Virus record (IMG/VR): IMGVR_UViG_3300021375_000031
Coordinates: 1-57,275 of that record
Reading direction: 5' to 3' (one strand)
DNA from: a virus
Length of the DNA stretch: 57,275 bases
Part shown: positions 8,221-13,282 of the stretch, in pieces
Numbering within the stretch: the stretch's first letter is position 1
Layout of the letters: each line of letters opens with the position of its first letter
Program-made: the position numbers and the translations under genes
The notes under the pieces: generated by a model
Database searches by the model: none
What the model was told of the DNA's origin: nothing
The model's input: the letters and a program-made list of their open reading frames with translations, nothing else

Positions 8221-11097
8221 TTACATATCTTTGATTACGTTGTGAATCTTTCTCAAATAGTTTGCTTGTTCTTGCTGTAATATTTCTGCTCTCAGTTGAG
8301 AATCAGTATTGTCTGTGTTACTAGCATTTAGAATTGCTTGTTGCTTTTTGTATTCTTCTGTGCCTTCTGTGTATTGGGCATCTAAATCTATACCTAGTTG
8401 TTTTGCACTATTCTGCATCAACTCTTTTTGACGGTCTTTGATAGCATCTATATCTGATTGAATACTTTTTCTAGATTTTTTATTACTAGTCATAGCCAAG
8501 TCTTCTTCTAGTATACTTAACTGTGTGTCAAGGTACTTGTCTTCTGCTTGTAAACTTTCCATTAATATATTTGAAAACTTTTCACTGGATTTTGCAATGG
8601 CATTATCAGCCGTCATTCCAAACGGTACTAGGAAATTGTCTGTGAGTATCTGCTTGTATTGATTTATATTTGATGCATCTGTTCGAAGCGAATCAATTTC
8701 ATCAGCACTCCAAGTTAAGCCATCACCTATAGCATCTCCTACCATTTGCGCCGCCGCAGTGGTTAAAAATCCTACTGGTCCTAGTAAAAATCCTAATGCC
8801 CCTATTGCCATACCTATTCCGCCGCCAGTTCCTTCTGCTCTTCTGGCATAAGTTTCTATAATATCTCTGCCTTGTTGCATTTGACCATCTCTGCTACCTG
8901 CCAACATATCACCTATAACATCAGCACCTGAGAAAGCAAGACTGAGTGGTCCTGCAACTCTTCCTGCAGATGAGAGTGCTTTACCTGTTTTAGTTTGACC
9001 CATAAAGTTTAAGGCTGTTGCTCCTGGTCTAGTTTGTGCTAATGCTTGTTGAGATTTACTTAAATTTTTGTATGCGTTTCCACGTTTATCATACAAGCCT
9101 GCATTTGTAATTCTTCCTCCGGCAGGAGTTCTAGTCATACCTGCGGCAAACCTTGTGCCCCTGGTTACTAGAGGTGCAATCATAGGACCTAACACCATTA
9201 AACCTAACACTTTTAAAATAATTTCCATTTTGTCTACTATGCCGCCAAGTACATTGGCAAATGTTGCTAGTGATTTACCAATTCCGTCAAATACTCCTGC
9301 AATATTTTGTGCGGCATCTATGTGTTTATTTTCAGATTTTATACCATTTTCTAGTGCTTTCGTCTGTTCTAGAATTTTTGCCCTTTGATCTTCACTTAAA
9401 GTATCATCATCTCTTAATCTAGCCTTTCTGCCGTCTATTTCTTTCTGCATAAATTTTATATTTTGTGCCGCTTCTTTGGCTCTATCTGCTTTTTCATTGT
9501 CTTCGCTTGACCTAAGACTTCTAACAAAATTCTCTATGTGCTCTGACATCCTGATAGCCATTTTACCAAATTTTTCTCCGAAATTATTTGCCGCAAGTTT
9601 TATTTTTTCGGCATTCAAAGTAAGGCTGTTGCTGAAACCATCTATTGTTGCAGATCCTGGAATTAAAGTGTTCATCAGATTCATTAATGCTGTATTCATT
9701 CCTTTTATAGCATCTTCATTGCTGAATAGTGTGATAAGAAAATTCCCAAAGGAATTCCTAACAGCATCCATATTCCTTCTAAACTGACTGAAATTTTTCA
9801 CTTGATCTTGGGCGAGTTTTTTAGCGGTAAAACCAAATAAAGAAATACTTGTTTTTGCTCTTTCAAAATTGTTAGTGAATTCAAGAAGTTTTGTGGCTGA
9901 TTCATCGCCTGCCCTAGCAAGAATGAATAAACGTTGCCTAGTTGCTTCACTTTGATTGCCTAGCAACTTGCTCATACGTTCTCGCATTTCTACTTCATTT
10001 AATTCTCCTGTGAGCAGACCCATTCGCAAATTTTGAAACTCCTTGTTCATTCCTGGCAATGCTCTCACAATACCAACTGCGGCGTCACTAAAACCTAATG
10101 CTCCTTTACCTGCGGCATCTATAAATGCGGCGGCTATCTGCCCACCTGCTTCTCCGCCCACTCTAATCATTTCATCTGCAAACTTGGTCATTGTGTCTAA
10201 CTGCATTTCTCTGGCTTGTTTGCTACCCCTAGCAAGACCTATTAGTGCATCGCCTGAAGTCACTGCGGCGTGCCTTAATGCTACAAACTCATTCACACTT
10301 AGACCTAAAACTTGTGCGTATTCAATGGCTCTGTCTGCTGATTCTAGCATTGCCGATTCAAAACTCTTAGACCCAACGTCTATCATACCTATTTGATTGA
10401 TTCTGAATTCTGTTTCTCTACCTATAAACTCTGCGGCTTCGGCGGCGGAGTAACCAAATTTTATAAGAGGACTATTTACATCTGTAACTGTTTTTATTAA
10501 ACCACTAAAACTTCGGGCATTTAAGGCTGTTACTCCTGAGAATGTATTAAGCACTCCGGCAAGTTCATCGAACGACATACCCATACCAGTTGCCGTAGTG
10601 GCTAAATCATTTGCAAAACCGTTTACATTCAATGCAAAACCTGTGCCTGCTTGTATGCTGGCTTCCATAGTACCGACATATTTCATCATTGCTTCACCGG
10701 CATAAGTAGCCGCTGTTCTCAGCAACACAAAACCTGCTGTGCCCAATGCACTACTTAATGCTCCAAAACTTCTGCCTAGACTGGCGGCGGCTTTTCGATT
10801 AAATATCGACTGACCTCTTTCAAGTTTTAAATTGTCTACTAAACCAGACCGTTCTCTGTTTTCTTTTTTTAGGTTATTTGCAAATTCATTTGCTGTTCGT
10901 TTAACATCGTCGAATGTTCCTTTGCCTGAGCCTGCATTTTTTACAGTCTGTCTGCTTGATGATCCTGCAGAACCTCCGCCCAGTTTGTTTATTAGATTAA
11001 TTAAATCTTTGGCTGTTTTTTCCGTGATGAAATCTGGTATACCGTCTACCTTAAATTGACTTCCATTGCCTCCAATTTCAGTTAATGTTATTGCCAT
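8221..11097 (-). CDS. Tape-measure-like tail protein
   Basis: 958 aa. It has the character of a phage tail tape measure. The N-terminal region is soluble and Gly/Ser-containing. Long helical Ala-rich stretches follow. Hydrophobic segments lie near residues 640-665 (ILKVLGLMVLGPMIAPLV) and 760-790 (GGIGMAIGALGFLLGPVGFL), and the C-terminus is coiled-coil. Such proteins fill the tail tube and set its length; 958 residues at about 0.15 nm each suggest a tail near 140 nm (inference). T4's equivalent gp29 has 590 aa and lies with genes 26-51-27-28-29. Here the gene faces away from gp26 across a short divergent promoter region and precedes gp20. Ribosome binding site is weak. No catalytic motif is seen. 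Confidence 0.72.
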   Translation of the reverse strand: MAITLTEIGGNGSQFKVDGIPDFITEKTAKDLINLINKLGGGSAGSSSRQTVKNAGSGKGTFDDVKRTANEFANNLKKENRERSGLVDNLKLERGQSIFNRKAAASLGRSFGALSSALGTAGFVLLRTAATYAGEAMMKYVGTMEASIQAGTGFALNVNGFANDLATTATGMGMSFDELAGVLNTFSGVTALNARSFSGLIKTVTDVNSPLIKFGYSAAEAAEFIGRETEFRINQIGMIDVGSKSFESAMLESADRAIEYAQVLGLSVNEFVALRHAAVTSGDALIGLARGSKQAREMQLDTMTKFADEMIRVGGEAGGQIAAAFIDAAGKGALGFSDAAVGIVRALPGMNKEFQNLRMGLLTGELNEVEMRERMSKLLGNQSEATRQRLFILARAGDESATKLLEFTNNFERAKTSISLFGFTAKKLAQDQVKNFSQFRRNMDAVRNSFGNFLITLFSNEDAIKGMNTALMNLMNTLIPGSATIDGFSNSLTLNAEKIKLAANNFGEKFGKMAIRMSEHIENFVRSLRSSEDNEKADRAKEAAQNIKFMQKEIDGRKARLRDDDTLSEDQRAKILEQTKALENGIKSENKHIDAAQNIAGVFDGIGKSLATFANVLGGIVDKMEIILKVLGLMVLGPMIAPLVTRGTRFAAGMTRTPAGGRITNAGLYDKRGNAYKNLSKSQQALAQTRPGATALNFMGQTKTGKALSSAGRVAGPLSLAFSGADVIGDMLAGSRDGQMQQGRDIIETYARRAEGTGGGIGMAIGALGFLLGPVGFLTTAAAQMVGDAIGDGLTWSADEIDSLRTDASNINQYKQILTDNFLVPFGMTADNAIAKSSEKFSNILMESLQAEDKYLDTQLSILEEDLAMTSNKKSRKSIQSDIDAIKDRQKELMQNSAKQLGIDLDAQYTEGTEEYKKQQAILNASNTDNTDSQLRAEILQQEQANYLRKIHNVIKDM

Positions 11098-11188: not shown

Positions 11189-12082
11189 ATGAGCGACGAG
11201 AACACACAGAATATAGCAAGTAACCCACTTAAAGGGTTTTTTAGAAATCCAGGATTATATATTTCACTACCCAGTAGTGGAGCATTTTACGAACCAGGAG
11301 AAATAAAATTCGACAGAGGAGAAGAATTAGCAGTTTATCCTATGACAGCACAAGACGAAATGATTACAAGAAGTCCTGATGCATTATTAAACGGAGATGC
11401 TGTTTACAAAGTTATTGCAAGTTGCGTACCTGGAATTATATATCCAACAAAATTAACAGCCAAAGATGCTCAATCATTAATGATTGGTATTAGATGTGCT
11501 ACTTACGGCGATGAGCAAGAAATAAATCAAACGTGTCCGGAATGTAGAGCAGAAAGCAAGTATATGATGAACCTTAGAGATGTTATTGCAAACATTGAAC
11601 CGTTCACTGACAATCACGAAGTTAAAACTTCAAATGGTTTAAAAATTGTGCTTACACCAGTAAGTTACGATTCAACGTTGGCTACTAGCAGATACACATT
11701 TGAAAATGCTTCTATTTTAGCCAGTATGGCAAATGTGGCAGATGAAGATGCTGTTACGCAAACAGAAAGAATGGAAACATTTAGAAATGCTTTTGCCAAA
11801 ATGGCAAATTTAAATTTACAAATTATGTTAGACAGTATCAAATCTATTACTATACACAATGCTTCAGAAGAAACACAAGAAACAGTTGTTACTGACAAAG
11901 AACATATTACTGAATTCCTAACCAACTGTGATGCTAAAACCAGCCAACAGATTGAACAAGCAATAGCAGAATACAATAGCACAATTTCAACTGAAACATT
12001 ATCTGCAACTTGTGGCGAATGTTCACACGATTATGAAACACCATTGGAGTTTGATCCAGTAAGTTTTTTCTCAGGGTCCTAA
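11189..12082 (+). CDS. 26: gp26-like baseplate hub / tail assembly protein (zero-frame product)
   Basis: 297 aa, resembling the T4-like gp26 baseplate family of marine phages. The N-terminus has NPGLYISLPSSGAFYEPGE. Two CxxC pairs (CPEC near residue 116, CGEC near 275) could form a zinc ribbon. Shine-Dalgarno TTGGAG is 7 nt before the ATG. Four codons before its stop the gene carries a canonical -1 slippery heptamer, so it probably yields two products: this one and a 374-aa fusion with the following frame. In T4 genes 26 and 51 act in assembly of the baseplate hub and lie upstream of tape measure gene 29. The two-product design resembles the G/GT tail chaperones of long-tailed phages (inference). 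Confidence 0.8.
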   Translation: MSDENTQNIASNPLKGFFRNPGLYISLPSSGAFYEPGEIKFDRGEELAVYPMTAQDEMITRSPDALLNGDAVYKVIASCVPGIIYPTKLTAKDAQSLMIGIRCATYGDEQEINQTCPECRAESKYMMNLRDVIANIEPFTDNHEVKTSNGLKIVLTPVSYDSTLATSRYTFENASILASMANVADEDAVTQTERMETFRNAFAKMANLNLQIMLDSIKSITIHNASEETQETVVTDKEHITEFLTNCDAKTSQQIEQAIAEYNSTISTETLSATCGECSHDYETPLEFDPVSFFSGS

Positions 12083-12121
12083 GTAGCGAAGATCCTGAAC
12101 TGATCCAGGAGTACTTAGGAC
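12064..12121 (+). promoter_or_regulatory. Programmed -1 ribosomal frameshift signal at the end of gp26
   Basis: In the gp26 frame the codons read AGT TTT TTC TCA GGG TCC TAA, so 12064-12070 is a canonical X_XXY_YYZ heptamer, T_TTT_TTC. After a 5-nt spacer (12071-12075) comes a perfect 10-bp stem: GTCCTAAGTA (12076-12085) pairs with TACTTAGGAC (12112-12121). Inside its loop TCCTG (12093-12097) pairs with CAGGA (12106-12110). The gp26 stop codon lies in the 5' arm. Slippery site, spacing and stem all fit efficient -1 frameshifting. Confidence 0.85.
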
Positions 12122-12312
12122 GAATCAAGCAAGAATCAGAAGAGATTGTTAGATCCCTAACACTAATAGTAATGAATTACGAAGGTGGTATAAGTTATTC
12201 CGAAGTATGGGAAATGTCTCATTATCAAAGAGATATAGCAATAAAAGAACTAGTCAAGAAGAGTGATGCAATAAAGTCTTCTCAAGGCATTTCAACTCAA
12301 AAACAATTATAA
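12070..12312 (+). CDS. 51: gp51-like -1 frame extension of gp26 (frameshift part)
   Basis: 80 codons in the -1 frame, from CTC after the slip site to the TAA at 12310. It is too short to stand out as a gene and lacks a usable start: the only early ATG (12172) has no Shine-Dalgarno and would discard half the frame. The protein is helical, with SSEDPELIQEYLGRIKQES followed by a segment with SYSEVWEMSHYQRDIAIKEL. That second segment resembles the short gp51-type or 'T' chaperone domains next to gp26-like genes in T4-like phages. Expressed through the frameshift it would make a 374-aa gp26-gp51 fusion. The reading frame and signal are seen; the gp51 relation is inferred from position and style. 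Confidence 0.72.
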   Translation, partial: LRVLSSEDPELIQEYLGRIKQESEEIVRSLTLIVMNYEGGISYSEVWEMSHYQRDIAIKELVKKSDAIKSSQGISTQKQL

Positions 12313-12339
12313 AGAACTATAAACAACTAAACACTTTAT

Positions 12340-12358
12340 AGACACTTCGTGTCTTTTA
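12340..12358 (+). terminator. Rho-independent terminator after gp26/gp51
   Basis: AGACAC (12340-12345) and GTGTCT (12349-12354) form a 6-bp hairpin with a TTC loop, followed directly by a T run. It lies 28 nt after the stop of the frameshifted frame, which supports that frame being the true end of the transcription unit. Confidence 0.75.
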
Positions 12359-12435
12359 AAACTACATTCAATCGTTTCGTTTCACTTCACTCTTTCATTT
12401 GTTTTAAAGTTTTTTAAATTAATATTTAATTAACA

Positions 12436-12635
12436 TTGGCTTATCTCGAAAGTGGAGTCATAATTCACCCTTGCGGGTGAAAAATAAATCTCATCTCGAT
12501 GAGCCTCGTCATCTCTAACCCAGGTGCTATAAAGAGGTGGTGAGCCTTATCCCCTCATACACTACTGTCACGAATCTCACGGAAACCAATATAACCTGGT
12601 AGAGTTGAGTTATATTGACTGCAGGTTGCTTTTTC
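12436..12635. ncRNA. Candidate structured RNA or cis element (strand uncertain)
   Basis: Several compact inverted repeats occur together. TTCACCC / GGGTGAA (12464-12470 with 12475-12481) has a 4-nt loop that reads GCAA, a GNRA tetraloop, on the minus strand. CTCATC / GATGAG (12490-12495 with 12498-12503) has the alternative partner TCATC (12509-12513). CAATATAAC / GTTATATTG (12587-12595 with 12609-12617) is the longest; AACCTG (12593-12598) can also pair with CAGGTT (12622-12627). A near-repeat of GATGAGCCTCGTCATC at 12498 appears at 12539 (GGTGAGCCTTATCCCC). I do not recognise a known RNA family; it could lie in the 3' part of the gp46-SegE transcript. Confidence 0.35.
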
Positions 12636-12682
12636 TCAGAGCCTGATCATTTAATACTGTTTGTCGTTTGTCTGTATTTCAT

Positions 12683-12856
12683 TTAACGCCATACATTCCA
12701 GAATCTCGCACCGGGTGTTTCCATTGCCGGATTGTCAAAGAAATCGATATTAATAGCCTCGATGGGGTGGTGTATGGACCTATGTGTGCCTTGTGTAGCC
12801 TTGTGTGTTTGACTTTGCGTCTGTGTGTGCCGTAATGTTTGTTGTTGCAAAAATAG
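12683..12856 (-). pseudogene. Coding-like remnant continuing the SegE-like frame past its stop
   Basis: Directly after the SegE-like TAA the same frame stays open for 57 codons to a TAA at 12685-12683. The first half is Gln/Thr/His-rich and looks like CA-repeat noise. The last part reads FDNPAMETPGARFWNVWR, which looks like a genuine protein C-terminus. There is no ATG with a ribosome binding site. It may be a decayed gene end, a readthrough tail or chance. Confidence 0.3.
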
Positions 12857-13282
12857 TTATCTATCTTTTAATGCTTCTTTTAATATTTGTGAACCTCCGA
12901 CTCTTACATTGATGATTCCGTTGTAATAGTCGTCACTTAATAATACTTTGTGTTTGAATTGTAGTTCTGCTTCAACGTAACTTGCTACTCCTCTACTAGG
13001 GCAATACTCTAATATCTCTCTAGTAAATTGGTCTTCTCCAAGTTCGTTGACGTCATTTATTAAATGATCCGAACTCCCCCAATAAGTACGCCAGTCACTT
13101 TCTTTATAACCACGTCTTTTATTCTTTCTGCCTTTTAATGGGGGTTTGGTTGTTTTGAATTTGGCAAGTTTCTTACCAATATACTTCATACCGTTTTGGT
13201 TGTTTGTGATTAAATATACAAATGCTTCGCAATCATCAGGAAGTGTGTCTACTACTTTACCGTTATGTGTCCAGTCGCTCAT
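12857..13282 (-). CDS. SegE-like GIY-YIG domain protein
   Basis: 141 aa. Residues 21-37 (FVYLITNNQNGMKYIGK) hold a GIY-YIG-type N-terminal motif in its VYL...YIG form. A conserved basic block follows (KGRKNKRRGYKESDW near 50-64), then WGSS and an acidic helix with Glu near residue 103 (SYVEAELQFK). This pattern matches the SegE-like GIY-YIG family found as free-standing phage endonuclease-like genes. Such proteins cut DNA at specific sites and can spread their own gene, though activity is not shown here. The ATG overlaps the gp46 stop by one base (TAATG), so translation is coupled to gp46. The C-terminal stop is followed by an in-frame open stretch. Confidence 0.75.
   Translation of the reverse strand: MSDWTHNGKVVDTLPDDCEAFVYLITNNQNGMKYIGKKLAKFKTTKPPLKGRKNKRRGYKESDWRTYWGSSDHLINDVNELGEDQFTREILEYCPSRGVASYVEAELQFKHKVLLSDDYYNGIINVRVGGSQILKEALKDR

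Follow-up and report, generated by a model that had tools for sequence, protein, structure and literature searches.

A Probable -1 Frameshift in the gp26-Like Chaperone Gene of a Marine T4-Related Phage, with Counterparts in Jumbo Phages

Introduction

In phage lambda, the part that the tail assembly chaperones gpG and gpGT share binds the tape measure protein, and the part that is extra in gpGT recruits the tube protein (PMC5009743). The synthesis of lambda-type chaperones by -1 frameshifting is credited to Xu, Hendrix and Duda (2004), as reviewed in PMC5009743. In T4, the listed hub assembly chaperones include gp26 and gp51, the latter being needed yet absent from the particle (PMC3004832). 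As cited in the PRFect paper (PMC10885494), Vladimirov, Gautam and Davidson (2022) described T4-like phages with short and long chaperone genes and no frameshift; as cited in a 2025 paper (PMC12846349), the same authors described poly-T slip signals in T4-like chaperone genes. In addition, a GTTTTT slip site was reported for the chaperone locus of Vandenendeviridae and Andersonviridae (PMC12846349). Because later papers name Vladimirov et al. (2022) as the source for T4-like chaperones and their poly-T slip sites, this kind of system is already known, and the general idea of chaperone frameshifting in T4-like phages is already published.

The window, i.e., the whole stretch of DNA that was analysed (57,275 nt, IMG/VR record IMGVR_UViG_3300021375_000031), belongs to a marine T4-related phage and carries, in addition, genes for a late sigma factor and for nuclease subunits of the gp46/gp47 type. 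Its gp26-like gene shares with the G/GT type a heptamer near the 3' end of the short gene and an open -1 frame without a start, both conserved in relatives. It differs from lambda in its poly-T heptamer and longer chaperone, no sequence link to lambda having been found; moreover, the lambda-type locus immediately precedes a tape measure gene of the same direction, whereas the window gene is divergent from its neighbour. T4 gp26 and gp51 belong to the same PF12322 family and share the C-terminal domain, gp26 corresponding to the short form and gp51 to the long form; however, T4 has two genes on opposite strands and no slip site, whereas the window has one gene with a putative -1 slip. The Vandenendeviridae and Andersonviridae resemble the window in their poly-T slip site, and their downstream frame is annotated as a separate hypothetical gene; they are other phage families with another gene order. 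The present analysis adds breadth (jumbo phages), the stem, and sequence evidence pointing to an ancestral frameshift and a derived T4 pair. The reach into jumbo phages, the near-universal T_TTT_TTC and the direction from frameshift to two genes may be new.

Results and Discussion

The gp26-like gene and its -1 frame

The following features were found on the plus strand of the window:

11189-12082, plus strand: gp26-like gene encoding the short form (TAC-N), 297 aa (PF12322, phrog_150)
12046-12049, plus strand: GGAG, a speculative internal Shine-Dalgarno-like stimulator, 14 nt ahead of the heptamer
12064-12070, plus strand: slippery heptamer T_TTT_TTC in the gp26 frame (direct reading; TTTTTTC/T invariant in 63 loci)
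12070-12312, plus strand: -1 frame of 80 codons (12070-12309) and stop codon TAA (12310-12312), putative C-terminal domain of the long form
12076-12121, plus strand: stem-loop with a 10-bp stem and an inner 5-bp stem, candidate frameshift stimulator (RNAfold, shuffles)
12080-12082, plus strand: gp26 stop codon TAA within the 5' arm of the stem (direct reading)
12340-12355, plus strand: hairpin past the -1 stop with UUCG in its loop, a weak terminator-like element (scan score below threshold)

The 297-aa product matched PF12322 (T4_baseplate; gp26/gp51 family) with 60.7 bits, the curated cutoff being 24.5, and phrog_150 (PHROG 150, baseplate hub) at 3.4e-20. Among isolates, its relatives are jumbo-myovirus gp26 proteins (Phosso, Atu_ph07, the PA5oct type, RaK2, 121Q, GAP32, CBB, XacN1 and others), and jumbo-phage gp26 is 24-35% identical to the window protein.

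From position 12062, the gp26 frame reads AGT TTT TTC TCA GGG TCC TAA, and the heptamer stands three sense codons ahead of the stop. The in-frame T_TTT_TTC, the 5-nt spacer and the stop codon within the stem, on which the original prediction was built, could all be read directly. Open reading frames of 100 aa or more, counted over the two strands, contain 64 in-frame X_XXY_YYZ heptamers, and T_TTT_TTC at 12064-12070 is the only one followed by a -1 frame running at least 50 codons past the stop.

It had also been claimed that the 80-codon -1 frame has no ribosome binding site for an independent start. This was borne out: its earliest ATG, GTG or TTG is the ATG at 12172, codon 35 counting from 12070, and no Shine-Dalgarno-like sequence was found just 5' of this ATG. 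In the window clade, codon positions 1/2/3 of the -1 frame were variable in 23/7/52% of the codons, which is the pattern of a translated frame. When the -1 domain was compared with HMM libraries, no named family was found (none in Pfam; in PHROGs only a match at E 0.04), and a tblastn search of phages with its 80 aa returned nothing.

The GGAG at 12046-12049 was kept in close relatives only. The terminator predicted past the -1 stop was confirmed in part: a hairpin, AGACAC TTCG GTGTCT, is present and is followed by TTTTAAAA, but this contains merely four T, and the scan score remained under the threshold.

Conservation of the heptamer and of the -1 frame

In the close IMG/VR relatives whose sequences reach the gene end, TTTTTTC, the stem and the -1 frame were all kept. 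The heptamer and the -1 domain were also kept across very distant T4-related phages. All 16 jumbo phages carried the heptamer at "FF" near the gp26 C-terminus, as T_TTT_TTC in 14 and as T_TTT_TTT in two (XacN1 and RAS14), and the distance between the start of the heptamer and their gp26 stop ranges from 13 to 43 nt. The heptamer and the -1 frame were likewise present in a cyanophage, in Vibrio phage Va3 and in Stenotrophomonas phage Moby, and the heptamer was found in cyanophage-type IMG/VR loci spanning the gene end and in a KVP40-type contig.

Altogether, the heptamer was present in 63 of the 63 loci measured (two records being counted twice), at the same two Phe codons and together with a short related domain encoded in the -1 frame. 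These loci were picked by protein similarity and not by the heptamer, and they lie outside the T4/44RR/133/Slopekvirus lineage and one Ackermannvirid. In all 28 representatives, whose -1 domains are less than 90% alike, the preceding codon ends in T and the first Phe codon is TTT; under synonymous codon usage and assuming independence, the chance of this is 4e-13, a value that overstates the significance because the sequences share ancestry. Scans with the proteins of Atu_ph07, 121Q and Va3 yielded few additional loci. In Klebsiella phage 0507-KN2-1, an Ackermannvirid (locus L034, near 3744), a gp51-tail-like domain was seen in the -1 frame of gp26, and no X_XXY_YYZ heptamer was found near the gp26 end of this phage.

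The second frame could instead be a separate small gene, which is how it is annotated in 121Q, Phosso and Va3; its own start would then be used through termination-reinitiation or lie in an overlap (ATGA, TAATG). Overlapping starts are indeed annotated in these three phages and in SNUABM_47, Kaldavass and XbC2, yet in the window clade, PAC2, XacN1, RAS14, XaC1 and others the early part of the -1 frame lacks a start codon. The residues of the -1 frame right after the heptamer, FRxxLL in most lineages, are conserved 5' of any possible start codon. Since these post-slip residues are conserved ahead of them, the annotated starts probably do not mark where the protein originally began; for the same reason, the stand-alone second genes of jumbo phages and cyanophages seem to reflect choices made in annotation, the conserved residues starting at the heptamer. 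A separate gene would also leave the invariant heptamer without a reason, and T4 produces a fused long form, gp51. An independent second gene in relatives, which had been named as a finding that would speak against the original prediction, was encountered only in a special way: T4 gp51 is a complete long form, and its existence as such therefore supports the need for a fused product. A separate gene is thus considered very unlikely, and fusion of the two frames by ribosomal slippage is preferred.

In cyanophage ACG-2014g, the 31-aa "gp51" (locus L033, 3777-3872) resembles a truncated annotation of a -1 frame that starts at the heptamer (3672).

RNA structure downstream of the heptamer

The arms GTCCTAAGTA (12076-12085) and TACTTAGGAC (12112-12121) are perfect complements, and the stem that they form begins 5 nt after the heptamer. 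RNAfold reproduced both the perfect 10-bp stem and the inner 5-bp stem that had been described. The folding energy of 12071-12130 was -19.2 kcal/mol (z -2.7 against dinucleotide shuffles, 3 of 200 shuffles being equally stable), and the window stem also gave z -2.7 against synonymous-codon shuffles, which preserve the -1 protein.

In the 28 related sequences, the RNA 3' of the heptamer was overall more stable than synonymous-codon shuffles (Stouffer -6.1). The effect was strongest in Atu_ph07 (z -5.3) and was strong in locus L007 (-3.0) and the window (-2.7); strong structure was also found in Hallingskeid, XacN1, Moby and some cyanophage types. In the same shuffle test, unusual downstream structure was absent in RaK2, PHA46, ACG-2014g and others. 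A universal RNA structure was ruled out, the stems being lineage-specific. Because the excess of stability is uneven among lineages, the stimulator appears to be lineage-specific and the heptamer near-universal.

The window stem is kept in the close clade and not beyond, with no compensatory changes there; since it barely varies, covariation in this clade is uninformative. A deficit of synonymous changes in the stem was significant for the window versus locus L008 only (p 0.001) and not for the other two pairs.

In Atu_ph07 (locus L002, 4826-4900), a very strong structure follows the heptamer (z -5.3 against synonymous-codon shuffles): GGCTCTTTGT is paired to ACAAAGAGCC, and an 11-bp hairpin lies between them. 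The pairing of GGCTCTTG with CAAGAGCC in Phosso corresponds to this structure.

A fused product might also arise by slippage of the RNA polymerase on the T6 run rather than of the ribosome. Six consecutive T, and seven in XacN1 and RAS14, are compatible with such an event. Transcriptional slippage usually requires longer runs. Moreover, most loci have exactly T6C in a strictly codon-phased run, and several lineages have a stem about 5 nt downstream; the phased T6C and the stem argue for a ribosomal slip because they are typical of ribosomal -1 frameshifting. Transcriptional slippage is therefore regarded as extremely unlikely. A third reading, in which heptamer and stem are mere coincidence and a decayed or overlapping -1 frame gives no product, might be suggested by the differences in the stem between lineages; it has a negligible probability given the third-position variability of the -1 frame, the homology of its domain to the gp51 tail and the conservation over distant phages.

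Ribosomal -1 frameshifting thus remains the preferred reading. The heptamer, the stem, the translation-type constraint on the -1 frame, the conservation and the homology are established at the level of the nucleotide and protein sequences.

Relation to T4 gp26 and gp51

PF12322 covers T4 gp26 (208 aa) over nearly its whole length and the first 201 residues of T4 gp51 (249 aa). PHROG 150 covers both proteins, and gp51 has about 45 further residues. By sequence, gp26 and gp51 of the T4 lineage are paralogues, gp51 being the long form. The notion that gp51 is only the extra domain had to be abandoned: T4 gp51 is a whole gp26 paralogue plus a domain of the -1 type.

When the -1 domain was matched to the gp51 tail by profile comparison (hhalign), the probability was 94% (P 1e-7) for all frameshift loci and 96% (P 1.7e-9) for the cyanophage/KVP40 type. 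A direct comparison of jumbo-phage and cyanophage -1 domains was weak (19%), so that the case for a common origin depends on where they lie and on the link to gp51 that both have. The comparison of jumbo-phage gp26 with full gp51 was also weak (39.7%), and the relation between them therefore rests on PF12322. Together, the conservation of the heptamer and the -1 domain and the match to the gp51 tail profile favour the proposal that gp26 and gp26-51 are the T4-type counterpart of G and GT.

No poly-T heptamer was found at the corresponding place in the gp26 genes of T4, 44RR, 133 and phiKp_23. In a maximum-likelihood tree, gp26 and gp51 of these four phages formed one clade (support 93/88) sitting among the frameshift lineages; within it, the gp51 subclade was strongly and the gp26 subclade moderately supported. 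The tree has long branches and an unknown root. The T4 genes 26 and 51 had both been placed upstream of gene 29; gene 26, however, is on the strand opposite to that of 51-27-28-29.

The simplest history suggested by these sequences is an ancestral frameshift that was replaced once, in the T4 lineage, by duplication, although doubt remains. It is on balance probable that frameshifting is ancestral and near-universal for the chaperone pair of the T4 superfamily, including jumbo phages of the RaK2, GAP32 and Atu_ph07 types, and that the T4 lineage left it via a single duplication giving gp26 and gp51. If so, T4, the best-studied member, would be the odd one out, and many deposited genomes would contain mis-annotated halves of a fusion, labelled "gp51" or as small hypothetical genes.

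Proposed mechanism

It is considered very probable that -1 programmed frameshifting yields a short and a long tail assembly chaperone from one gene and that the T4 lineage replaced the slip by duplication. Most ribosomes would end at 12082 and release the short, gp26-like form of 297 aa. A fraction of ribosomes would be held back by the stem, which begins 5 nt further on, while both tRNA-Phe are paired to T_TTT_TTC; a slip back by one base would then give the long form (TAC-NC) of about 374 aa in all, ending in a helical domain of 80 residues, a homologue of the C-terminal part of T4 gp51. The short form may coat the tape measure and the long form may recruit tube subunits, as in lambda gpG/gpGT. 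In the T4 lineage, the slip would have been exchanged for gene duplication, with gp26 as the short and gp51 as the long form. The occurrence of slippage, its efficiency and the gpG/gpGT-like working are what we infer, and what is known of the lambda and T4 chaperones is carried over to the window by analogy.

The predicted structure of gp26 combines alpha and beta elements (pLDDT 78), and that of the -1 domain consists of helices only. In fold searches, the predicted models matched gp26-like viral proteins, and no significant solved structure was found in the PDB. The HK97 chaperone 2ob9 (Z 5.2, 90 aligned residues, rmsd 6.9) was not separable from unrelated chains. The suggested structure search of the -1 domain did bring up several named chaperones, but only at E above 1. 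These model-based resemblances are hints only.

On the proposed reading, T4 genes 26 and 51, the long-puzzling "hub assembly" genes, would be the short and long forms of one chaperone, and most relatives would make both forms from one gene by a ribosome slip. This would account for the orphan gene of 50-80 codons after gp26 in many jumbo phages and cyanophages and correct its annotation. Moreover, phages in which frameshifting sets the ratio of the two forms lend themselves to comparison with phages in which two genes, each expressed separately, set it.

Surroundings of the gene

The order portal (minus strand), long structural ORF (minus strand), gp26 (plus strand) is common to the window and many jumbo myoviruses. 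The two-gene chaperone arrangement of T4, in which the complete long form has its own gene, was not encountered in the window; the gp26 query had no second match within the 57-kb record, which may be a fragment.

The neighbour divergent from gp26 is a 958-aa ORF (8221-11097, minus strand) at the position of the annotated tape measure gene in some jumbo phages. It had no clear family match and, by BLASTP, no similarity to the two jumbo-phage neighbour genes compared; its homology to the jumbo-phage neighbour gene is thus unsupported by BLASTP, and it is an unproven candidate for the tape measure gene.

On the other side, no convincing gene, Rfam family or tRNA was found in 12313-12856, about 540 nt 3' of the -1 stop. 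Beyond it, beside the chaperone locus, a 141-aa ORF (12857-13282, minus strand) matches homing-endonuclease PHROGs; in several jumbo phages, endonuclease VII occupies the place of this ORF.
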